Assembly: GCA_001303785.1 (NCBI GenBank)
Contig: LJUJ01000020.1
Coordinates: 1 to 34,299, forward strand
Reading direction: 5' to 3'
Length of the DNA: 34,299 nt
Origin: Caldifarciminota bacterium SM23_42
GTDB lineage: Bacteria > Hydrothermota > Tepidihabitantia > SM23-42
In this document: positions 15,843-32,812 of the stretch, piece after piece
Layout: each line of letters starts with the position of its first letter
Position numbering within the stretch: the first letter of the stretch is position 1
Position numbers and translations under genes: made by a program
Notes under the pieces: generated by a model
Told to the model about the DNA's origin: nothing
The model's database searches: none
The model's input: only the letters and a program-made list of their open reading frames with translations

Positions 15843-16694
15843 CTATTCGTACCGGAAGTTGTGCTTGTAGTTTTTGAGCATCTGCACCTCTTTCTGGCTG
15901 CACCCGCATTTACCAATCTGTAGACTAGAACGTCGGTGACCGTGACAGTCCGAGCCTCCGGTCATCAACAATCGTCTCTGCAAAGCCATTTCGTGCAGTC
16001 TCTGTTGACACGTTAGGGAGTGATCCGGATGCCATACCTCAATGCCAACCGCACCTTCATCGATCAGGCGTTCTATCAGGGTATCATCGTCAAATATCCC
16101 CGGATGAGCGACGACCGGTATGCCCTGCCATTGCTTAATTCTACCTATCAACCGCTTTGGCTCGACACTCAATTTAGGTTCGTAGTAGGGCGAATGGTAA
16201 CTCAGAAACCGCACGAAGGCCTCTCTAATGGATTGCACGTAGCCCTGCTCCCGTAAAGCTTCGGCAATATGTGGGCGTCCCAGAGTGCTATTCTTGGCTA
16301 GCTCCCTCATGCGTTCGAAATCGACCTTGATGCCATCATGAGAGAGATTCTCGACAATCTTTTTCGCCCGTTTTATACGGTGATCGCGTAGTTCCGACAG
16401 ACAAGAAAGGAAATCAGCATCATCACCATCAACATAATACGCGAGTATATGTATATCAAGATGGCCAAGATTTGAACTCATCTCGACGGCAGGTATTATA
16501 TCAATATCCTCATGTTCTATATTCCTCAATTCTTCAGCGGCTAGAATCGAATCATGGTCGGTGATCGCGATGGTCTTGAGGGCAATATCCCTACAATAAT
16601 GAACTATTTCTGATGGTGAAAGCAATCCGTCCGAACAATTTGAATGTATGTGAAGGTCGGCGTAATGCTGATTTTGCGGGATCGCTGAGATCAA
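15843..16694 (-). CDS. PHP domain phosphoesterase (TrpH/RNase AM-like)
   Basis: A 283-residue polymerase-and-histidinol-phosphatase-type metal-dependent phosphoesterase. Motif I is YADLHIHSNCSDG (H15, H17), motif II is AITDHDS, motif III is VVAHPG and motif IV is GGSDCHG, so the trinuclear metal site appears intact. It resembles the TrpH/YciV group, for which 3',5'-nucleoside bisphosphate phosphatase and 5'-3' exoribonuclease activities are described, but the substrate here is not certain. The start is a TTG at 16694 that overlaps the stop of the upstream ATPase (TTGA), so translation is probably coupled. There is no in-frame ATG before motif I. Confidence 0.88.
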   Translation of the reverse strand: MISAIPQNQHYADLHIHSNCSDGLLSPSEIVHYCRDIALKTIAITDHDSILAAEELRNIEHEDIDIIPAVEMSSNLGHLDIHILAYYVDGDDADFLSCLSELRDHRIKRAKKIVENLSHDGIKVDFERMRELAKNSTLGRPHIAEALREQGYVQSIREAFVRFLSYHSPYYEPKLSVEPKRLIGRIKQWQGIPVVAHPGIFDDDTLIERLIDEGAVGIEVWHPDHSLTCQQRLHEMALQRRLLMTGGSDCHGHRRSSLQIGKCGCSQKEVQMLKNYKHNFRYE

Positions 16695-17515
16695 GTTTCT
16701 TTCGTAAGGAGGCCAAGGTCTTGTACTACATCGTCAATGATCTTCACACTAATCGCTTCTCGTTTTAGTAAGTAACCCTCAAGCAATGCATTGTCACAGA
16801 TCGCATTGATAGTCCTTGGATTTCCCTTTGAATAGAGAAAGATAGCCTTCATCGCCTCACGGTAAAAGAGACTTCTCACGCAGCCAGCAACACGAAGACG
16901 GTGCAATATGTAATTGTAGGTCGCCTGCTCATCGAGTGTCTCCAACACACAACGGATAGCGATGCGCTGATATAGCGGTGGATCTAGCTTCAAGTAGTCT
17001 TCAGTTTCAGGTAGACCAAAAAGGAGGAAATTCAGCAGCTTGCCATGTTCTGATTCGAGATTCAACAATCCCCGTATCTCCTCCATTATCTCCTTGCTGC
17101 GCAGCATATTGGCTTCATCGATCAGAATCACGACCTTCTTATTCTTCTTGGCAAACTCAAGGAGACGATGATACACAGCGGTAATGATTTCAATCTTGTT
17201 TTCCGAGCCATTACCGGCTTCTAACATCAGGGCGATCTTTTTCAAGAACCACAAGGATGTTATCTCTGAGTGTATGATTACCAAGAGTGTTGCCTCTACT
17301 TCTTGGTCAATCAACTGATCCAGCAGACGCCGGGACAATGTGGTTTTGCCCGTACCAATGGCTCCCACCAATAGAGCAAGACCCTTTTCCGTTTCCACTG
17401 CATGTGATAACTTTAGCAAAGCTTTTGAGTGCTGCGGCGAACTATAGTAGAATTTCTCATCTGCCGCGAAACTGAAGGGATGTTCCTTCAATTTATAAAA
17501 TGATTCGTAACCCAT
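16691..17515 (-). CDS. ExeA/MshM-type AAA ATPase, copy 2
   Basis: A 274-residue AAA ATPase. Residues 1-32 show the family's N-terminal signature (YESFYKLKEHPFSFAADEKFYYSSPQH). Walker A is GAIGTGKTT (51-59) and Walker B ends in ILIDEAN (D133, E134). Further blocks are EEIRGLLNLE, PLYQRIAIR and CDNALLEGYL. Family members include ExeA, which helps assemble type II secretion pores, and MshM of the MSHA pilus. Unlike ExeA it has no membrane segment or peptidoglycan-binding domain, so it is cytoplasmic. It follows the second TPR gene by 7 bp and is closely similar in layout to the ATPase at 19319-20140. The role is inferred: energy for assembly or handling of an envelope machine. Confidence 0.85.
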   Translation of the reverse strand: MGYESFYKLKEHPFSFAADEKFYYSSPQHSKALLKLSHAVETEKGLALLVGAIGTGKTTLSRRLLDQLIDQEVEATLLVIIHSEITSLWFLKKIALMLEAGNGSENKIEIITAVYHRLLEFAKKNKKVVILIDEANMLRSKEIMEEIRGLLNLESEHGKLLNFLLFGLPETEDYLKLDPPLYQRIAIRCVLETLDEQATYNYILHRLRVAGCVRSLFYREAMKAIFLYSKGNPRTINAICDNALLEGYLLKREAISVKIIDDVVQDLGLLTKET

Positions 17516-17522
17516 GCGGATT

Positions 17523-19319
17523 CTATAGGTAGGTGATCTTTGACTTTTTGTCCGCTTTGCTTGAGTCTGAAGAACTTTTATCTTCCAATTTATCTCCCGA
17601 CGCGCTCTTGCGTCTTTTTTTCAATGCATCAGTGACTTTCTGTTTTAGCTGCAATATCTTCTGATTCAAAGCAGGAACTTTCTTGTCTATATTGTAGGCA
17701 TCAACATAGGCCTTCAGAGCGTTCTTGAGGTCAGCCTTCTTCTCGTGGCAATTGCCTAAAAGGAAATAGATACCGAAATATTCCTGATCATCGTGTCCCT
17801 CTGCTGTCAGGCCTTCGTTCAACACGCGGATCGCATCATCGATTTTGTCATATTCTAGATAACAAGATCCAGTCATCTCTAAGGCTTTAAGTCGAAGCCC
17901 TTCGTCTTTTGCCGCAATTTCAAACTCCTCGATCGCTTCTTGATAAAGGCCCATACCTTTATAAGCGACACCGAGGTCATAGTGGGAACGAAAGTCTCCC
18001 TCACCAATTGATTCAAAAACCTCGCGCCGAAATTCCGAGACCAGCTCTTCAATGCTTTGAATCGTCTCGGCCCGCGCTTCACTCTGTTCAATCCTGAGCA
18101 CCTCACCGAGGTCGACCGTGGCGGCGGTCTTTTCCGGAGGCACATACCGCTCTTTTGCCACCGCGTTGTCCGGATCGATCTTCAAAACATCCCGGTACAC
18201 CTTTTGGGCCTCGCTCTTGGCCTCCCGCCTACTCAACGCTTCGGCCAGCTCCAGCATGTAGGCGACTTTCAACTCATCATCATCTCTCGTGCGCGCTATT
18301 TCAACAAGATGCTGTCGGGATTTAAGATCAAACGGTCTCAACTCGGCAATCCTCTTATTCAGATCCATCGCTTTATCGTAGTCCTTTTTCTGCCAGGCAT
18401 CCTGTTCAGCGTCGCGGAAACAGTCAATTGCCTCCTCAGTGGAATCCAGTTTCAAATACAGTTCCCCCAGTTCAATCGTTTTGTCGATCTCCGAGAGACT
18501 TGCGGCAACATCGAGTCCTGCTGAAGGGCGCTCTTCGTCTTTCAGTAATTCTGCCACTTCTGGAGAAACAATATCTTCGATCGAGATCTTCTCTTTCTCA
18601 GCGCTTTCATCGACCCTCTCCTGCACCTCTTCGGTTACCACCGGCTCTTCGACTTCTGCTACCTCTTCCTTTACTGCCTCTTCTTCTTTTGCTCGTACCT
18701 CCCCTTGCTCCGTTGGAGAAGTTTTCTGCGCCTCGCGTTCAATCTTTTCCTTTTCCTCTAAAATCGTTTCCTTGAACTTTTCATGCTTTGTTTCGATCTC
18801 CTTTGCCTCTTCCAACAACTCCGAACCGCGATCCTTCTGTCCAACCTGTTCGTATATTGCTGAAATGGTCTTGAGGATTCTCGGATTATTGGGCACCAAT
18901 TCCTTTATCGTGTCATACGTTTTCAGTGCCGTATCCAGATCGTCTGCTTTTCGCTTACGGTCGGCATATTCAAGGAGATAATTTGCCGCCTCCCCTCGCT
19001 GATCGAGTTCCTTATGCAATTCACCCAGTAGACCGTAGATCTCGGTACGATTCTTATCGAAACGAAGAATCTTCTTGCACAATGCAATCGCATTTGGATA
19101 GTATGTTTCGTCCTTGAATACCCTTGCGCCCTTCTCGTAGGTCTTAAGAGCATTTTTCTGGCGATTCGCCTTCACATACAAATCACCCAGTTTATTGTAC
19201 AATGAACCCTCTTTGGGGAATTCATTAATCGCGGTTTCCAACTCCGCTATCGCATCTTCGATCGCGCCCTTAGCCTCTAACTCGGCAATCTTTCTTTTTA
19301 CGTCAACTAGATCAGCCAT
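17523..19319 (-). CDS. Large TPR-repeat protein, copy 2, partner of ExeA-type ATPase
   Basis: A cytoplasmic 598-residue protein built of tetratricopeptide repeats. Repeats are evident at about 14-170 (GSLYNKLGDLYVKANRQKNALKTYEKG and the following ones), 275-395 (ELYLKLDSTEEAIDCFRDAE) and 450-560 (YDLGVAYKGMGLYQEAIEEFEIA). A strongly acidic, Glu/Val-rich linker at about 190-260 separates the first two blocks, and the C-terminus is Lys/Ser-rich. There is no signal peptide or membrane segment. Its ATG overlaps the stop of the preceding ATPase gene by one base (TAATG), so the genes are coupled. TPR proteins act as scaffolds; in the MSHA pilus locus a TPR protein (MshN) is next to the ATPase MshM, which is the nearest analogy I know. 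Confidence 0.85.
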   Translation of the reverse strand: MADLVDVKRKIAELEAKGAIEDAIAELETAINEFPKEGSLYNKLGDLYVKANRQKNALKTYEKGARVFKDETYYPNAIALCKKILRFDKNRTEIYGLLGELHKELDQRGEAANYLLEYADRKRKADDLDTALKTYDTIKELVPNNPRILKTISAIYEQVGQKDRGSELLEEAKEIETKHEKFKETILEEKEKIEREAQKTSPTEQGEVRAKEEEAVKEEVAEVEEPVVTEEVQERVDESAEKEKISIEDIVSPEVAELLKDEERPSAGLDVAASLSEIDKTIELGELYLKLDSTEEAIDCFRDAEQDAWQKKDYDKAMDLNKRIAELRPFDLKSRQHLVEIARTRDDDELKVAYMLELAEALSRREAKSEAQKVYRDVLKIDPDNAVAKERYVPPEKTAATVDLGEVLRIEQSEARAETIQSIEELVSEFRREVFESIGEGDFRSHYDLGVAYKGMGLYQEAIEEFEIAAKDEGLRLKALEMTGSCYLEYDKIDDAIRVLNEGLTAEGHDDQEYFGIYFLLGNCHEKKADLKNALKAYVDAYNIDKKVPALNQKILQLKQKVTDALKKRRKSASGDKLEDKSSSDSSKADKKSKITYL

Positions 19320-20140
19320 TACTCAAACTTCAAACCTAGGTTACTGACTACTCTCTCGATCAGAAATTCATCGATTTCCTGTTTGCGCTGTAGATACCCT
19401 TCCAACAATGCGTTATCACAGATGATATTCACGAGCCGCGGTCTACCTTCAGAATACCGACAGATCAGATCCAATGCCCGCGGACTAAAGATCTCGCGCT
19501 CACTGCCGGCAACATTCAACCGGTGACTGATGTAGGATCGCACAGTATCACTGCCCATTGATTTTAGCCTGATCTTGACGGCGATACGCTGATACAGCGC
19601 ACGATTCGAGGCAAGGAAACTCTCGAGGTCGGGCAGACCACTGAGAATGAACGACAGAAGCCTTGTATCCCCGATCTCCAGATTCAACAATCCTCTGATT
19701 TCTTCCAAAACATTAGGGTTGTCTATTTTGTTTGCCTCGTCAATGATTATTACCGCTTTCTCATTGCGATGATATATTTCACTCAGCCGCTGCGAGATGC
19801 GCGATATGATCTCGGTGGTCGAATCAGTGAGGTCTCTCAAACCAATGAGATTTGCAATCCTCGTATAGAGCCATGCCGGAGAGAATTCTGAATGAGTTAA
19901 CACAATAAGCCCGATCTGAAACTTCCCCAGCGCGTACAGCTCACTCAGAATCTTGCGTGACAGTGTCGTCTTCCCCGTTCCGATATCTCCGAGCAGCACA
20001 GCCAATCCCCGCGCCCCGCGTGCGGCATGCAGCAAATACTCCCTCGCCAACGCATGCTGAGGTGAATTGAAGTAGAATTTCGGATCCGGGTGGTTAGCAA
20101 ATGGCTCTAATCCAAATGCGTAATACTCTTGATATCCCAA
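19319..20140 (-). CDS. ExeA/MshM-type AAA ATPase, copy 1
   Basis: A 273-residue protein with the same plan as the ATPase at 16691-17515. It has the N-terminal signature YQEYYAFGLEPFANHPDPKFYFNSPQH, Walker A GDIGTGKTT (51-59) and Walker B IIIDEAN (D134, E135). It shares the blocks EEIRGLLNLE, ALYQRIAVK and CDNALLEGYL. The matching Walker A coordinates and shared blocks point to an old gene duplication. The start is a TTG at 20140 with GGAGG 4 bases upstream, 13 bp after the stop of the first TPR gene. No membrane anchor is present. The function is inferred as a cytoplasmic motor or switch for an envelope assembly that works with the adjacent TPR scaffolds. Confidence 0.85.
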   Translation of the reverse strand: MGYQEYYAFGLEPFANHPDPKFYFNSPQHALAREYLLHAARGARGLAVLLGDIGTGKTTLSRKILSELYALGKFQIGLIVLTHSEFSPAWLYTRIANLIGLRDLTDSTTEIISRISQRLSEIYHRNEKAVIIIDEANKIDNPNVLEEIRGLLNLEIGDTRLLSFILSGLPDLESFLASNRALYQRIAVKIRLKSMGSDTVRSYISHRLNVAGSEREIFSPRALDLICRYSEGRPRLVNIICDNALLEGYLQRKQEIDEFLIERVVSNLGLKFE

Positions 20141-20153
20141 TCAGCCTCCCGTG

Positions 20154-21920
20154 TCAGAGAAAAGAAATATTCTCGCCCTCGTCCTCGGGCATTTTCTCTG
20201 GTTCCTTTTCCTCAGTTGGTTCCTGAGCAGGTTCTTCAGACCGCGGTTCCATTTTTTGTTCCTCAGTTGGCTCATACGGTTCGACGATTTCAATCTTCTC
20301 AGCAGCCCGCTCACTCGGAATTGTTTGCATTTCTTCCGGGACTCGCTCGGGCGTTGGAGTAACAGTCTTGCCCCCCAACAATTCATACATCTCCCTGACA
20401 TCTCGATAGTCGGGATTAGTCGACATTATGTGTTCGATTTCCCTAAGGGCGTTTTCGAAATCGCCGAGCCCCTCGTAAGCCGAAGCGAGAAGGTAGCGCA
20501 GTTCGACTTTCTCGGCCTGCGGAATATCCTCGAGAAGAATTGCCGGACCCACTGTCTTTATCGCATCACTGTACTTACCCAACTTTATCAATGATGCCCC
20601 GGCTATTTCAAGTGACAAAGGCCATGTGTTCTTGTTGATTTTCAGCTCGCGAGCATGGGTGAGGGCTGTTTCATACAACTCGGCATCATATGCCATGCGC
20701 GCCAGCTCTAATCTTTTGTTGATATTTTCCTCTTCCCAAACGATATTGCCCCGGAATTCATCAAACTCAGTCGCAAATTCAAAACTCGGGGCAGGCGGAG
20801 TTTCCATTTCTTTCAAGAGAAATTCAATGTCGGCGATCTGTCCTTCAAGGGTCTGAGGTTCTTCGGTTTCGGTAACCGGAGTTTCTGCTTCCGCTTTGCC
20901 TTGAGCACTGTCAACGTAGGTTTCCACTTCGCGAATGAGATCATCGAATATGTCGGTCCCAACTTCAGCCGTTTCAGACACCTGCTCAGCAGGTTCCGCG
21001 GCCTCAGCACCAACTACCTCACTAGGTGCCTCGACCGGTGTTTCTGCTGTTGTCATCTCTTCGGTCTTCTCGGTTGCCTCTACAGTCTCCTTTTCTTCAG
21101 TAGCAGCGGGGACCGCTCCGCCCTGGAGTTCTTGTAACTTGCTTTGGACAACCTCGTTAGCCGGATCTATTTCCACGATTCGGTTCAGAACGTTAATCGC
21201 TTCGCCAACATCACCCTGCTCAATTAAATCACTTACTGCCTTGTTGAATTCAACAACTGCCTCATCCCTGGATCCAATCTCGTAGAGTAGATTACCAAGC
21301 TCGATGCGGCTCTTCGGGTCAAGTTCCTCCTCCCCACCATCGGTTTGAGGAAGCAACTTGCTGATTTCGTCGAGTATCGCCTGCTCATTCTGCTCGGCAG
21401 CCACTTTCTTCAGACGCTTCAGTTCTTCCTCGGCCTGTTCGGAACGATTCATCGATCTCAAAATACGGGCATAGGATAGCGCCAAACGCAGATTCAGAGG
21501 TTGTAATTCAACAATTTTACGCAGTCCGGTAAGGAATGTTGTCTCATCTTTATTTTCGATTGCCCACGCGCACAGTTCAATAATCTTCTGTACCCCTTGA
21601 TTAGGAAGACCATACTGCTTATAGAGATGTGCAAGATTCACAAATCTGTCGCTATTCGTGCTTTCGATTTTGGTGATCTTTTCGAGACAGATAATCGCCT
21701 GGAGCTGCCGATTGTTTCCTGTATAACGCTCAACAGCCTGCTCGTAATATCCCACTGCTTCCTCTTTTTTGCCCGTTTTTTGGGCAAGATCACCCGAAAG
21801 TTCCAGAGCCCTTGCCGAGTTTGGATTATCATGTAGAATGCGCCGGATGAGAACCTGTGCCTTCTCATACTGCCCTTCCTGCATGTAGCTCCTACTTTTC
21901 TCTAACACATCATATTCCAT
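20154..21920 (-). CDS. Large TPR-repeat protein, copy 1, partner of ExeA-type ATPase
   Basis: A cytoplasmic protein of 588 residues. The ATG at 21920 has AGG 6 bases upstream and is preferred to the TTG 3 bases earlier. TPR units are clear at about 10-130 (YMQEGQYEKAQVLIRRILHDNPNSARALELSGDLAQKTGKKEEAVGYYEQA), 200-265 (LGNLLYEIGSRDEAVVEFNKA) and 400-500 (LEIAGASLIKLGKYSDAIKTV). Two low-complexity Glu/Thr/Ala-rich segments lie at about 270-350 and at the C-terminus (545-588). It heads the five-gene run TPR, ATPase, TPR, ATPase, PHP and has its own promoter. It differs enough from the second TPR protein that only the architecture, not the alignment, is obviously shared. Confidence 0.85.
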   Translation of the reverse strand: MEYDVLEKSRSYMQEGQYEKAQVLIRRILHDNPNSARALELSGDLAQKTGKKEEAVGYYEQAVERYTGNNRQLQAIICLEKITKIESTNSDRFVNLAHLYKQYGLPNQGVQKIIELCAWAIENKDETTFLTGLRKIVELQPLNLRLALSYARILRSMNRSEQAEEELKRLKKVAAEQNEQAILDEISKLLPQTDGGEEELDPKSRIELGNLLYEIGSRDEAVVEFNKAVSDLIEQGDVGEAINVLNRIVEIDPANEVVQSKLQELQGGAVPAATEEKETVEATEKTEEMTTAETPVEAPSEVVGAEAAEPAEQVSETAEVGTDIFDDLIREVETYVDSAQGKAEAETPVTETEEPQTLEGQIADIEFLLKEMETPPAPSFEFATEFDEFRGNIVWEEENINKRLELARMAYDAELYETALTHARELKINKNTWPLSLEIAGASLIKLGKYSDAIKTVGPAILLEDIPQAEKVELRYLLASAYEGLGDFENALREIEHIMSTNPDYRDVREMYELLGGKTVTPTPERVPEEMQTIPSERAAEKIEIVEPYEPTEEQKMEPRSEEPAQEPTEEKEPEKMPEDEGENISFL

Positions 21921-21938
21921 CAATAGCCTTCCGCAAAA

Positions 21939-21966
21939 ATTATAGTTGTTTTCAAAATGTTGTCAA
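21939..21966 (-). promoter_or_regulatory. Promoter of the TPR/ATPase operon, inside the ftcD 3' end
   Basis: On the minus strand a perfect TTGACA (21966-21961) and a perfect TATAAT (21944-21939) are 16 bp apart. The -35 box lies within the last codons of ftcD. The predicted start near 21932 leaves a leader of about 12 bases before the ATG at 21920. It separates control of the TPR/ATPase genes from the histidine-degradation pair. Confidence 0.85.
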
Positions 21967-23457
21967 GAATATTTTCTCAATTTCCTTGAATAATTTCTCT
22001 TCTTGCTTGGTGAGAGAGTCTACTGTAGTATTCATGGAACTGTTAAATTCACTGTCGGCTATCGATTTCAGATTGATGAGCACATTCAGGCGAGCTCCGA
22101 TGAATCCGCTGTGTAAAGCATGCAGCGCGACACCGACATCGGAAATCGCACTCTTCAATCCTTTTTGAGCCAATGTCTTGGCATATGGATAGACGAGAAG
22201 AATCTTCTTACAGACCTCAAGCGGCACGTGGGCGGCGTGTTTTGTTGCCTCTTGTACCGCAGCTTCTTTTTTCTTCTTCTCCTCGGTTGAATCATCGGGC
22301 AGCTTGAATGATTCCATTACTTTGTCGAACGCCTGCTTGTCTTTTTCGATATACTTATAGAATTCGTACATCTCGAGTTTCAAGTGGCCGTGAAAATCCT
22401 TCAACTCCTCATCCTTTGTCTTCTTCCACGTGATACCAGTCACCATGGCCAACAGTCCGGTACCTAATCCGGCTTCCAGGGCGGCAACACTACCGCCACC
22501 CGGGGTCGGTCGTGACAGAGCAAGATCATTCAAGAATTCCAGAATCGACTGCTTGCCTGCCTTGCCTCGTAGCCGATATTCGAGAATTTGATTTTCATTG
22601 AAACGGTCTAGCTGCAAGTAGTATCTTGCGGCATCAATCAATGCTTGCTCCGGAACCAAGCCGACAATTTCTGATTCCCTTATGTTCACGCCGTAACGCG
22701 TGGCTTCTCGCTTTGCAGTCTCAAACACACGGTACAGAGGCGTCTTCGTGTACTCGGTCATATTAATCGAGACCTGAGCAATGCCTTCGTCCTTCAATTC
22801 AAAACCGAGTGCCTTACAATATCTGAACCCGCCACTCATGAAGCGAATCGCCTTAGCAACTTTCTGCGCAATCCCAACATCAGCTGTGTTAAGGTTCAAA
22901 TTGAATGCAATGAGTGGAAACCGCGCACCCACTACAGTAGCACCTGCGGTCGGATGTATTTTTGCTTCGCCAAAATCGGGGCGTCGGTCAGGATTGGTCT
23001 CAATCTCGTCTCTGATGCCCTCAAACTCGCCTCTTCTGATGTTTGCAAGATTCGTGCGGTCAGGCCTGGTTGCTGCCGCTTCATACAGGTAAACCGGGAT
23101 TCTCAACTCGTCGGCAATCCTCTTCCCCAAGCGTTTTGCCAGTTCCACACACTCACGCGTCGTCGCATTGCTGATCGGTACAAAAGGAATGACGTCGGTC
23201 GCGCCCATACGCGGGTGCTCGCCCTTATGTTTTGTTAAGTCGATCAACTCCGCCGCTTTCTTTGCCCCCAGGAACGCGGCCTCGAGTACTGCTTCGGGTT
23301 CACCCACAAACGTCACGACCGCACGGTTATGGCTCGAGTCCATTTCCCGGTCAAGCAACTCGACGCCCGCACTCTCAATCTCCGAAAGTATCTGATTCAA
23401 CTTGTCTTCGTTGCGTCCCTCACTGAAATTCGGAATACATTCAATGATTTTTTCCAT
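21952..23457 (-). CDS. ftcD: Bifunctional glutamate formimidoyltransferase / formimidoyltetrahydrofolate cyclodeaminase
   Basis: A 501-residue fusion, as in the animal enzyme FTCD. The first part (1 to about 300) is the formimidoyltransferase, which moves the formimino group from N-formimidoylglutamate to tetrahydrofolate: IIECIPNFSEGRN, SSHNRAVVTFVG, HKGEHPRMGATDVIPFVPI. The second part (about 310-501) is the cyclodeaminase, which releases ammonia to give methenyl-tetrahydrofolate: FLNDLALSRPTPGGGSVAALEAGLGTGL. Many bacteria encode these as two genes. The ATG overlaps the end of hutI by 17 bp, so they are translated together in histidine breakdown, feeding one-carbon units to folate. The remaining pathway genes (hutH, hutU) are not in the window. 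Confidence 0.94.
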   Translation of the reverse strand: MEKIIECIPNFSEGRNEDKLNQILSEIESAGVELLDREMDSSHNRAVVTFVGEPEAVLEAAFLGAKKAAELIDLTKHKGEHPRMGATDVIPFVPISNATTRECVELAKRLGKRIADELRIPVYLYEAAATRPDRTNLANIRRGEFEGIRDEIETNPDRRPDFGEAKIHPTAGATVVGARFPLIAFNLNLNTADVGIAQKVAKAIRFMSGGFRYCKALGFELKDEGIAQVSINMTEYTKTPLYRVFETAKREATRYGVNIRESEIVGLVPEQALIDAARYYLQLDRFNENQILEYRLRGKAGKQSILEFLNDLALSRPTPGGGSVAALEAGLGTGLLAMVTGITWKKTKDEELKDFHGHLKLEMYEFYKYIEKDKQAFDKVMESFKLPDDSTEEKKKKEAAVQEATKHAAHVPLEVCKKILLVYPYAKTLAQKGLKSAISDVGVALHALHSGFIGARLNVLINLKSIADSEFNSSMNTTVDSLTKQEEKLFKEIEKIFLTTF

Positions 23458-24637
23458 AGATAACCTTTCCTTTTTTAATTGTGTATCTTACCATATCTTC
23501 CCCAAATTGGTAAGGAATTTTCTTATAATTATCAACATCAAGAACAACCAGATCTGCCTGTTTGCCCTCTTCTATACTGCCTATACGTTCATCTAGTCCA
23601 AGCGCCTTAGCACCGTTCTTGGTTGCGCCAATCAGCGCTTCCTCAACGTGCATACCATAGGCAAGACAGGCTAACGCAATAATCTTCAACATCGAATAGA
23701 TCATGCACGAACCCGGGTTGAAGTCGCTAGCAATCGCCACCGCTGATTTGGCAGCCCGGAATGCCGCCACGTTGGGCTTTTTTGTGAGGCGCAGAAAAAC
23801 CGAAGTGCCGGGCAACAGCGTCGGAATCACGCCCGCTGTCTTCATCGCCATGATATCGAGCCTTGTCGAGACAAGCAAATGGTCAGCCGATGTGCACCCA
23901 AGCTCGGCCGCAAGTTTTGACCCACCCAGGTTCGCGAATTCATCAGCATGGATTTTGAGCTTGAAGCCGTAATCCCTGGCCACGGAAAGAATTTCTTTGC
24001 TCTCTGTCCTGGTGAATGCGATGTTGTCGCAGAACACATCACAGAACGAAGCCAGCTTTTGTTTGGCAACATAGGGAATCATCTCCCGGGTGACGAGTTT
24101 AATGTAATCTCGACGCTTCATTTTCCTCGGAACCGCATGCACGAGCAAGGTTGATACTACATCAATTGGCGCACGTTTTTTCAGACGGTTGATGGCACGC
24201 AGCATCTTGTATTCAGTATCAGGCATGAGGCCATAGCCGCTCTTACTCTCGACCGTGGTCGTGCCATGCTTCATGATATTTCTCACGCGCTTCAAGCCGA
24301 GTTCGTAAAGTTCGCTCTCACTCGCCCGCATGGTTTTTCTTACTGTATTGGCGATGCCGCCGCCTGCTCGGGCAATTGCTTCATATTTCATGCCTTTCAT
24401 GCGCATTGCGAATTCATTCTCGCGGCTTCCACCAAAGACAAGATGCGTGTGAGAATCGACAAAACCAGGGCAAACCACACATCCTTGTGCATCAATAGTA
24501 CGGACCTTTGTTGAGGCTTTGATTGCTCCAATTTTCTTAATCGTTCCGTTCTCGATCACAACTGAGGTGTTTTTCACGACACCAATACCCCGTTTCATGG
24601 TCAGTACTTCTGAAGCGTCACGAATTAACGTCAACAT
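23441..24637 (-). CDS. hutI: Imidazolonepropionase
   Basis: Opens the ring of imidazolonepropionate to N-formimidoylglutamate, the substrate of the next gene, in the third step of histidine degradation. The 398 residues are typical in length. It has the amidohydrolase metal motif PGFVDSHTHLVFGGSR (H63, H65), the substrate loop ESKSGYGL, the HADEFAN metal/catalytic segment and IASDFNPGSC near the end. The start at 24637 gives the usual N-terminus (LIRDASEVLTM). There is no Shine-Dalgarno, and the promoter lies 7 bases upstream, so a leaderless mRNA is predicted. Confidence 0.95.
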   Translation of the reverse strand: MLTLIRDASEVLTMKRGIGVVKNTSVVIENGTIKKIGAIKASTKVRTIDAQGCVVCPGFVDSHTHLVFGGSRENEFAMRMKGMKYEAIARAGGGIANTVRKTMRASESELYELGLKRVRNIMKHGTTTVESKSGYGLMPDTEYKMLRAINRLKKRAPIDVVSTLLVHAVPRKMKRRDYIKLVTREMIPYVAKQKLASFCDVFCDNIAFTRTESKEILSVARDYGFKLKIHADEFANLGGSKLAAELGCTSADHLLVSTRLDIMAMKTAGVIPTLLPGTSVFLRLTKKPNVAAFRAAKSAVAIASDFNPGSCMIYSMLKIIALACLAYGMHVEEALIGATKNGAKALGLDERIGSIEEGKQADLVVLDVDNYKKIPYQFGEDMVRYTIKKGKVIYGKNH

Positions 24638-27066: not shown

Positions 27067-28737
27067 TTACCTTATCAAAAGCAACTTCTCTGTGGTACTG
27101 TAATCTCCTGCCCTGAACTTCAGGAAATAGACACCGCTTGGTACTCCTCTGCCCGAATTATCTTGACCATCCCAACGAACATTATGGTATCCAACTTGTG
27201 TTTTACGATTGACCAGGGTTTTCACTAACCGACCGTTCACATCGTAGATTTCCAGCTCAGTTGGAGAGCTTGTGGGTAGCGCATAGCTGATAGCTGTATG
27301 GAATTTAAATGGATTGGGTGAAATTTCATAGAGGCTAATACTCTTGGGAATATCTCCTTCTCGACCTGCTGCAATACCCCGGTCTCCAAAACGACCAAGC
27401 ACATATATGCTACCATTCCCTTCGAATGCAATGCCTCCATTGAGTTGTCCACTCACTGTAAAATCGTAGTAGCCACACTCTTCAATTATTTCTCTACAAA
27501 TTGATACAAGATGGCGTCTGTTAAATCTTACCATCAAGTCCGGAATACCATCACAATCATGGTCCCCAACGCGGGTGTAGCCTTTCCTGTATAGTGGATC
27601 AATAGGTTCACCCCCGATTGCTGTTATTGCTACCGTACTTTCGTCTATATCTCCAACGTCATAGCCACATGGTAGTTCGACATAACAACGAAGCCACCTG
27701 ATGAAACATCCTCCACCCCATCCGATCCATAACCAATTAGGACAATAATCTGCCGTTGCTTCAATTCCAACAAGGAATGCTATCGAAATGGGAAACCGAT
27801 CAGGTAATTGACTAGAGTGATCACCGACATATGACTGAAACTCATAGTCCAATCCTAATTGATCAAGACAAGCTGCAAATGCAGTGTTCTGCGGGTAGCA
27901 GCCCATTTCGTCCATTGTGCCGCAATCGAAATATATCGCTAAGTCAGAATTTGGAGGCAGCATTGCGGCATATGTTGGTGGGTTATGCAGCAACCATTTG
28001 TCCCAAACCGAATCAATGATATTTGCTGGCGTATCGAGTGGGAGATCAACAAAGTATGGTGGATTTGTGAGATTTGGTGAGAAAGCAGCGCCTAAGGAGA
28101 AAAACACTCCTGAAAAGAACCCAGCAGCGGGGTTCCAGTAGTATGGGGGCCCAGCCGGGTATTCTGCTAAGAGATAAGGAAACGCAGCAACCAGCATTAC
28201 GTTGTATTCAAGAGTTCCACTGTGGGCTGCAAGACGCGCAGAAATATCAGGACGTTTCAGGCCTAATGTCATTGAACCATAGGCACCCGCCGAATGTCCC
28301 ATGAGGTATCGTTTCTCTCGTGTTGGGATTACTCGATAATTCGCCTCGACGAAGTCAACCAGGTCATTGATAATATAATCTTCAAATGCACCATTGAGTA
28401 TAGAATTTGTGTACCAGCTCACCAAGTAAGGAGCGCTCCTTCCATCAGGTTTAACGACAATGACCGATTCAATAATCTGGTTTTCGATCAACGAATCTAG
28501 GATATCGATAATAAAAGGATACCCTGTATGATCGTCAAGTGCCCCATGCAGAAAATAGATTACCGGATAATCAATGCTGCCAACAGGGTCATATCCTTCT
28601 GGTAGGTAGATCTGAACGAGACGATCGCTACCTAGTGCGGCGCTGTAAAAAGACGTTTCTATTACTGTTCCCTGGGCGTAGCTGCTTCCTGATAGACACA
28701 AAAACAATACGAGTACAACTGGTACAGATTTGCTCAT
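27067..28737 (-). CDS. Secreted esterase (esterase D/antigen 85-like) with C-terminal sorting domain
   Basis: A secreted alpha/beta hydrolase of 556 residues; the substrate is an unknown ester, perhaps of a polysaccharide. A signal peptide (1-21, VPVVLVLFLCLSGSSYAQ) is followed by the esterase domain (about 25-325). This has the oxyanion region VIYFLHGALDD, the nucleophile elbow MGHSAGAYG (S149), the probable acid in FDCGTMDE (D276) and the probable catalytic histidine in VGDHSSQ (H307). Residues about 350-440 form a small domain with GDIDESTVAIT and VGDHDCDGIPDLMVRFNR, a module I associate with secreted proteins of this lineage. The last 80 residues are a sorting module (YEISPNPF, IYDVNGRLVKTL, WDGQDNSG, PSGVYFLKF). 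GGAGG precedes the ATG. No clear 16-bp-spaced promoter was found. Confidence 0.9.
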   Translation of the reverse strand: MSKSVPVVLVLFLCLSGSSYAQGTVIETSFYSAALGSDRLVQIYLPEGYDPVGSIDYPVIYFLHGALDDHTGYPFIIDILDSLIENQIIESVIVVKPDGRSAPYLVSWYTNSILNGAFEDYIINDLVDFVEANYRVIPTREKRYLMGHSAGAYGSMTLGLKRPDISARLAAHSGTLEYNVMLVAAFPYLLAEYPAGPPYYWNPAAGFFSGVFFSLGAAFSPNLTNPPYFVDLPLDTPANIIDSVWDKWLLHNPPTYAAMLPPNSDLAIYFDCGTMDEMGCYPQNTAFAACLDQLGLDYEFQSYVGDHSSQLPDRFPISIAFLVGIEATADYCPNWLWIGWGGGCFIRWLRCYVELPCGYDVGDIDESTVAITAIGGEPIDPLYRKGYTRVGDHDCDGIPDLMVRFNRRHLVSICREIIEECGYYDFTVSGQLNGGIAFEGNGSIYVLGRFGDRGIAAGREGDIPKSISLYEISPNPFKFHTAISYALPTSSPTELEIYDVNGRLVKTLVNRKTQVGYHNVRWDGQDNSGRGVPSGVYFLKFRAGDYSTTEKLLLIR

Positions 28738-32119: not shown

Positions 32120-32620
32120 TCACAGCCGCTGCCAGACGTTCTTATCCAAGCTCCGATACTGTATTGCCTCAGCGACGTGCTGGGTTTTGATTTTGTCGAC
32201 ACCTTCGAGGTCGGCAATGGTGCGGGCGACTTTTAATACTTTGTCATAGGCGCGCGCGGAAAGGCCAAACCGCTCGATCGCGGTCTTGAGTAAGGATTGT
32301 GATTCATCGTCTATTACACAATGCTTGCGGATATCCTTTGAGCCGAGATGAGCATTGCAGTAAATCTTCTTCTTACCCTTGTAACGAGAGAGCTGAATCC
32401 CACACGCACGGTTCGCGCGGGCGCGAATATCTTCCGACGACTCACCCGGTGTCGTCGATTTGAGCTCATCGTATTTGAGTGCCGGTACCTCGATATGAAT
32501 ATCGATCCGGTCGAGCAAAGGACCAGATATCTGTGAGTGATACCGCTGGATCGCAGTCGGCGTGCATCGGCATTCATGATACGGATCCGTGAAATAACCG
32601 CACGGACATGGATTTATTGC
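32120..32620 (-). pseudogene. YifB/ComM Mg-chelatase-like ATPase, C-terminal fragment
   Basis: The reading frame carries the last third of a YifB/ComM protein. It has the zinc-binding AINPCPCGYFTDPYHECRC, the sensor region ISGPLLDRIDIHIEVPAL, and the C-terminal domain with FGLSARAYDKVLKVARTIADLEG and the family ending QYRSLDKNVW. Intact members are about 500 residues and begin with a Lon-like domain and Walker motifs, all absent here. Homology stops abruptly just before AINPCPCG (about 32620); the few codons upstream (MYSKIDFWFCK) do not fit the family. The domain order within the fragment is undamaged, so the loss looks like one recent truncation. ComM works as a branch-migration helicase in natural transformation; this remnant could not. 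Confidence 0.85.
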
Positions 32621-32656
32621 AATTTCTTTACAAAACCAAAAATCAATCTTACTGTA

Positions 32657-32812
32657 CAAAGACCCGAAACACTCCCCATCGGCTATCCAATAGGACCAAG
32701 GACCATGGGTGAACGAATCAAGAAAAAAAGGATGGATATGGGTTTGTTCCAGAAGGATGTTGCTAGAAACGTAGGCGTTGCGGATTGTGCTACAACTATT
32801 ATCTCTATCTGA
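32657..32812 (+). pseudogene. XRE-type helix-turn-helix fragment
   Basis: On the plus strand the frame reads RPETLPIGYPIGPRTMGERI and continues KKKRMDMGLFQKDVARNVGV before degenerating to ADCATTIISI and a stop. I recognise the first part as the small XRE-like regulators with the pattern 'GYP.EP.TLGE.IRKRRLDLGLLQKDVA..LGV'. The recognition helix that should follow (typically ending in a W-E) is lost. It starts about 35 bp from the break in the YifB fragment and overlaps the orphan sorting-domain tail. I see no usable start and call it a remnant. Confidence 0.7.

Follow-up and report, generated by a model that had tools for sequence, protein, structure and literature searches.

Tandem TPR–ATPase gene pairs in candidate division WOR-3 and a possible SgmX-like module for type IVa pili

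A 34,299-nt stretch of Caldifarciminota bacterium SM23_42 (assembly GCA_001303785.1, contig LJUJ01000020.1, positions 1 to 34,299; here called the window) carries four adjacent genes in which a tetratricopeptide repeat (TPR) protein and a soluble ExeA-like ATPase occur twice in succession. An earlier note on this DNA, made from the letters alone, read the cassette as a possible undescribed envelope machine, and the question raised by the locus is what two such pairs do side by side. Our analysis confirms the cassette, finds it conserved and sets it apart from ordinary ExeA systems. On balance, we consider it probable that the second pair (pair B) is a regulatory module of type IVa pili (T4aP) resembling SgmX of Myxococcus xanthus, and that the first (pair A) is an old duplicate of it in candidate division WOR-3 with a separable role.

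Two TPR–ATPase pairs and an ancient duplication

The cassette is a minus-strand operon. Transcription runs through TPR-A, ATPase-A, TPR-B and ATPase-B, which are spaced by 13, −1 and 7 bp, the stop codon of ATPase-A (TAA) and the start codon of TPR-B (ATG) having one base in common. The order and gaps agree with the first description of the locus. Its components are:

20154..21923, minus strand: TPR-A, 589 aa (588 aa from the in-frame ATG at 21920); matches Pfam/NCBIfam TPR families; conserved 5′ of ATPase-A across WOR-3
20157..20174, minus strand: C-terminal tail of TPR-A, E-N-I-S-F-L-stop, with the motif [IV]x[FY][LIVM]-COOH
19319..20140, minus strand: ATPase-A, soluble AAA+ protein with an ExeA-like core only, 273 aa, TTG start; AAA_22 8.8e-20; TIGR03015 181 bits; WOR-3 clade A
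17523..19319, minus strand: TPR-B, SgmX-like tetratricopeptide protein, 598 aa; NF052243 (SgmX) 90 bits, 1.2e-25; AlphaFold2 model
17526..17549, minus strand: C-terminal tail of TPR-B, K-K-S-K-I-T-Y-L-stop, with the motif [IV]x[FY][LIVM]-COOH
16691..17515, minus strand: ATPase-B, soluble AAA+ protein with an ExeA-like core only, 274 aa; AAA_22 7.9e-19; TIGR03015 185 bits; AlphaFold2 pLDDT 92.5

The two ATPases are 44–45% identical, with Walker A (residues 51–59) and Walker B intact in both, and the blocks EEIRGLLNLE and CDNALLEGYL, already picked out by the earlier note, are identical in the two proteins; no third ATPase of this kind was found in the genome. A 19-aa hydropathy scan gave no evident membrane segment in any of the four proteins (maximum 0.86 for TPR-A and 1.45 for the ATPases), an N-terminal membrane anchor is absent from TPR-A and TPR-B, and all four proteins look cytoplasmic by sequence. 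In its AlphaFold2 model, TPR-B has three TPR blocks, acidic linkers between them and a disordered tail (pLDDT <50). The folds nearest to the ATPase-B model are Orc/Cdc6, TnsC and MuB, but at only 13–18% identity and with no DNA-binding context at the cassette; given these folds, the ATPase would be expected to assemble, dependent on ATP, into a ring or filament and to remodel the TPR protein paired with it. The best NCBIfam model, TIGR03015 (the XrtA/PEP-CTERM ATPase), is matched over its full length, but below its cut-off of 324.5 bits, and no PEP-CTERM neighbors were seen.

Our survey of candidate division WOR-3 (Stahlbacteria) covered 147 genomes. ATPases of the A/B profile occur in 73 of these, in many as two copies approximately 2.6–3.2 kb apart, and paired copies about 2.6 kb apart recur phylum-wide, far beyond chance. 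The usual order is hutI, ftcD, TPR-A, ATPase-A, TPR-B, ATPase-B and PHP, with some variations, and in two families (f30 and f15) ATPase-B is located away from the cassette. A tree of 57 ATPases separates A from B, with clade supports of 95/92 and 97/93, and each clade extends across many families. The duplication is therefore ancient, in line with the earlier view that the ATPases are paralogous. A 921-aa frame in genome G076 was considered as a natural fusion involving ATPase-A and rejected because of a scaffold gap of N.

Outside WOR-3, a scan of GTDB genomes with ATPase-B as query, with the best 80 hits kept, brought up relatives (51–58% identical) that the records assign to Nitrospirota, Methylomirabilota, Deltaproteobacteria, FCPU426 and Goldbacteria. 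A TPR protein is encoded directly 5′ of almost every one, and no consistent third partner was found among their gene neighbors. The pairs are thus found in many genomes, the double cassette across WOR-3 and pair B also beyond it. No A-type sequence came up outside WOR-3, but as the scan was made with a B query and cut at the best 80 hits, A-type pairs may exist elsewhere too. In the tree with outside sequences, the WOR-3 A sequences stay grouped (86/75, weak), and a 100/100 split divides A, B and the outside relatives from the remaining ExeA-like ATPases, among them the ones of WOR-3 pilus/secretin loci (L169 and L166); ordinary enzymes of pili or of the type II secretion system (T2SS) are not the nearest kin of the cassette ATPases. 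Two outside loci (L144 and L150), where patatin-like, TPR and ExbB/ExbD-like genes come after the pair, are nearly identical yet labelled Methylomirabilis and Goldbacteria, and one of the contigs is therefore probably misbinned.

Pair B, SgmX and type IVa pili

In M. xanthus, the cytoplasmic TPR protein SgmX binds MglA-GTP and is required for polar PilB and for T4aP formation (PMC7519303; PMC7668184; PMC11580455). It has three TPR blocks (PMC11580455), and its gene (MXAN_5766) is followed by MXAN_5765, encoding a putative Sec system ATPase, and then by TamB- and Omp85-type genes (PMC3983030). The SgmX family (NF052243) is the top NCBIfam match of TPR-B (90 bits vs. 73 for MamA), as well as of five outside B-type TPR proteins (353, 247, 225, 212, and 110 bits, where the next family scores 79–132 bits for the first four and 104 for the fifth). 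The likeness is not confined to scores: TPR-B, too, is predicted to be cytoplasmic and to have its TPR blocks in N-terminal, middle and C-terminal positions, a secretion-type ATPase gene comes next, and the genome encodes both MglA/MglB and the T4aP machine. At locus L124, SgmX-like TPR, ATPase, TamB and Omp85 genes have the order of MXAN_5766–5763 (PMC3983030), whereas TamB and Omp85 genes are absent next to the window's cassette, with PHP, fabZ and lpxA there instead. TPR-B differs from SgmX and from Bd2492 of Bdellovibrio in being shorter, and WOR-3 in having two paralogous pairs in tandem. The proposed undescribed envelope machine is accordingly not upheld, given the lack of an evident membrane segment and the resemblance of pair B to SgmX and its neighboring ATPase.

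In the same genome, genes for PilM, PilN, PilO, PilP and the secretin (PilQ) lie together, as do those for PilB, PilT and PilC, on contigs C18 and C41, the cassette being on C11. It remains correct that no pilus or secretion gene adjoins the cassette, but with a T4aP set elsewhere in the genome, missing pilus neighbors do not mean that there is no pilus link. One MglA gene (L193:2715–3296; 1e-79 to M. xanthus MglA) has a Roadblock (MglB-like) gene beside it; the other MglA gene is at L192:2826–3422. In genome G001 (L196:2893–4609), an MglA-like gene lies directly 3′ of pilT.

Across WOR-3, all of the approximately 50 genomes with B have PilT, and none of the 25 genomes without PilT has B (p about 1e-5 by genome). 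B was called from the tree for sequenced representatives and from synteny and family for the others, and the test used 51 genomes, one of which (G073) turned out to have an A copy only, near a contig end. Of the Nitrospirota genomes, 65 have a match at B level (at least 300 bits) and 64 of these have PilM, vs. 107 of 131 without such a match (p = 0.0004, not corrected for kinship), and 26 of 27 outside B genomes have PilM. The co-occurrence with type IV pili (T4P) that the earlier note had proposed to look for is seen, by genome, for pair B, while pair A also occurs without pili. The PilM frame measures about 350 aa in most cassette-bearing WOR-3 families and about 540 aa in most others, the longer form perhaps being a different or fused T4P type.

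A shared C-terminal tail

It had been thought that the two TPR proteins kept only their plan and acidic linkers. Plan and linkers are indeed shared, but "only" does not hold, since both proteins also end in a conserved tail (ENISFL in TPR-A and KSKITYL in TPR-B of the window). The TPR-B tail follows K-x-[KR]-[IV]-[ST]-Y-[LIVM] and that of TPR-A roughly E-N-I-x-F-[LIV], each preceded by a variable, disordered linker. When proteins encoded directly 5′ of ATPase hits were scored for a C-terminal [IV]x[FY][LIVM], it was present in 73 of 78 upstream of B-type matches (several phyla) and 26 of 33 upstream of A-type matches, compared with 0 of 1,040 background open reading frames (ORFs); some of the exceptions are non-cassette proteins or cut or misread ORFs.

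The tail also tends to follow the ATPase. In families f20 and f29, where ATPase-B was not found, TPR-B keeps its TPR blocks and stops cleanly short of the tail; by family, the B tail is present in 12 of 12 with ATPase-B vs. 1 of 3 without (Fisher p about 0.03; small sample). In f20 and f21, the A tails diverge most and the ATPase-A branches are longest. Loss of the tail alongside ATPase-B in two of three families suggests that the tail docks the ATPase. We treat any likeness of the tail to FtsZ or SSB tails, or to the N-terminus of PilN, as speculation.

TPR domains commonly bind C-terminal peptides, as in PEX5 and HOP, and the tail might instead occupy the TPR groove of the same or another TPR protein, with TPR-A and TPR-B polymerizing as a scaffold while the ATPases act elsewhere. 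This would suit the likeness of the A and B tails, the presence of PEX5 among the weak profile matches, and the stable dimer formed by purified SgmX (PMC7519303). We nevertheless think it rather unlikely, because two of the three families without ATPase-B have lost the tail too but not the TPR blocks, because the most divergent A tails are paired with the longest ATPase-A branches, and because the tail is disordered in the model of TPR-B, although a single chain cannot show docking between chains.

Pair A, the surroundings and the role of the cassette

Pair A occurs alone in the nine genomes of WOR-3 families f3 and f4, one of the nine A genes (in G057) being a fragment, and in these genomes there was no PilT or PilM at the thresholds used and no T2SSE match above cut-off. 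MglA and MglB are kept in both f3/f4 genomes examined (G058 and G065); in G058, which has no T4P, four MglA-like genes lie beside an MglB-like gene (L195). Hence pair A does not need T4aP, the pairs are separable, and pair A probably serves a different process. A more specific version, which we offer tentatively, is that pair A is a T4P-independent MglA-effector module with its ATPase docked on the TPR tail, acting on a polar or surface process in WOR-3, and that the tail is an undescribed AAA+-docking motif found across several phyla.

We find it unlikely that the resemblance to SgmX is generic TPR similarity and that the pair has an unrelated cytoplasmic role. TPRs match promiscuously and the score of TPR-B itself is modest, but the outside members reach 110–353 bits with both N- and C-terminal blocks matched, an ATPase gene comes next in both systems, the synteny extends to TamB and Omp85 at L124, and occurrence with T4aP is near-exclusive. 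Still less credible is a single heteromeric machine, formed by both pairs, for envelope or surface-protein assembly, perhaps of the nearby sorting-domain proteins. The single operon, the overlap of ATPase-A and TPR-B, the Por_Secre_tail/FlgD_ig proteins in the window and the TamB and Omp85 genes after the pair in L124 are all compatible with it, but there are no membrane parts, A stands alone in f3/f4 and B alone in other phyla, and ATPase-B is apart from the cassette in f30 and f15. Thus, of the earlier suggestion of a two-pair machine, the conserved double cassette stands and its obligate unity does not. Ordinary ExeA/MshM-type pilus ATPases with MshN-like TPR partners, drifted from a pilus locus, are very improbable: the AAA core is shared with ExeA/GspA and MshM (the broad TIGR03015-like family) and T4aP are present, but the cassette ATPases form a separate clade outside any pilus/T2SS locus, consist of the 273–274 aa AAA core without the transmembrane segment and peptidoglycan-binding C-terminus of ExeA/GspA, and have TPR partners without an N-terminal anchor.

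The cassette is flanked by the following features, of which the promoter and the downstream PHP, fabZ and lpxA genes had been correctly recognized.

21939..21966, minus strand: promoter TTGACA-N16-TATAAT, 12/12 consensus match; −35 box inside the last ftcD codons
15843..16694, minus strand: PHP-domain phosphoesterase, PF02811 3e-8; NF041577/NF047791 below cut-off; synteny in many WOR-3 families
21952..23457, minus strand: ftcD-like gene, conserved upstream neighbor, with a hutI-like gene at 23441–24637

The promoter is kept at 11 of 11 f1/f2 loci examined (same family and order; window counted). The best promoter-like sites between 13500 and 27200 (14436+, 21966−, 26719−, 24672−, and 14424−) all have a 16-bp spacer, perhaps the preferred spacing of this lineage. 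The start of the PHP gene overlaps the ATPase-B stop by 4 bp (16691–16694), and a PHP gene comes after whichever ATPase is last, in A-only families too, while hutI-like and/or ftcD-like genes (histidine breakdown) lie 5′ of TPR-A at most loci, distant WOR-3 families included. Elsewhere in the window, Peptidase M14 and esterase proteins with C-terminal FlgD_ig/Por_Secre_tail domains (259–2550 and 27067–28737) suggest a sorting route like that of the type IX secretion system, and a 179-aa C-terminal part of a Mg-chelatase/ComM-like protein (32120–32659) is probably a truncated gene.

If pair B is an SgmX-like regulator of T4aP, MglA-GTP would recruit TPR-B via its C-terminal TPR block, and the N-terminal block would aid the extension motor PilB in engaging the T4aP base; MglA binding and PilB recruitment are known only for Myxococcus SgmX and are assigned to pair B by analogy. 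We infer that soluble ATPase-B would dock on the free tail of TPR-B and use ATP to remodel or reset the TPR assembly, and that pair A, which probably also lies downstream of MglA, may act likewise through its own tail and ATPase, though not on T4aP.

Several observations weigh against an SgmX-like role for pair B. The link between B and T4aP is not significant at the level of WOR-3 families (p about 0.19), and it runs one way, since many genomes have T4aP without B; one f1 genome (G075, 97% complete) has T4aP and neither pair. The NF052243 cut-off of 1800 bits is reached by no protein here (best outside member scanned, 353 bits) and by none in the genomes of the sampled phylum, for which reason we call TPR-B SgmX-like rather than SgmX. 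The B tail is still present in f28, where ATPase-B was not found, and in G084, of the same genus, ATPase-B is present and TPR-B really has no tail (L165:9328–11046). Finally, deletion of MXAN_5765 leaves T4aP (S-)motility of M. xanthus unaffected, and SgmX truncated near its C-terminus bypasses the requirement for MglA (PMC7668184), which points, in that organism, to a regulatory and non-essential part for the ATPase and the tail.

The findings suggest that control of T4aP in the manner of SgmX predates the Myxococcota and extends beyond them. Of the new results, the tail common to both TPR proteins offers the best handle on the cassette: conserved across phyla, it provides a short peptide bearing on PilB recruitment by SgmX and on the ATPase gene that follows sgmX. 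Genomes with one pair and no pili indicate that the module is able to work on targets other than pili.

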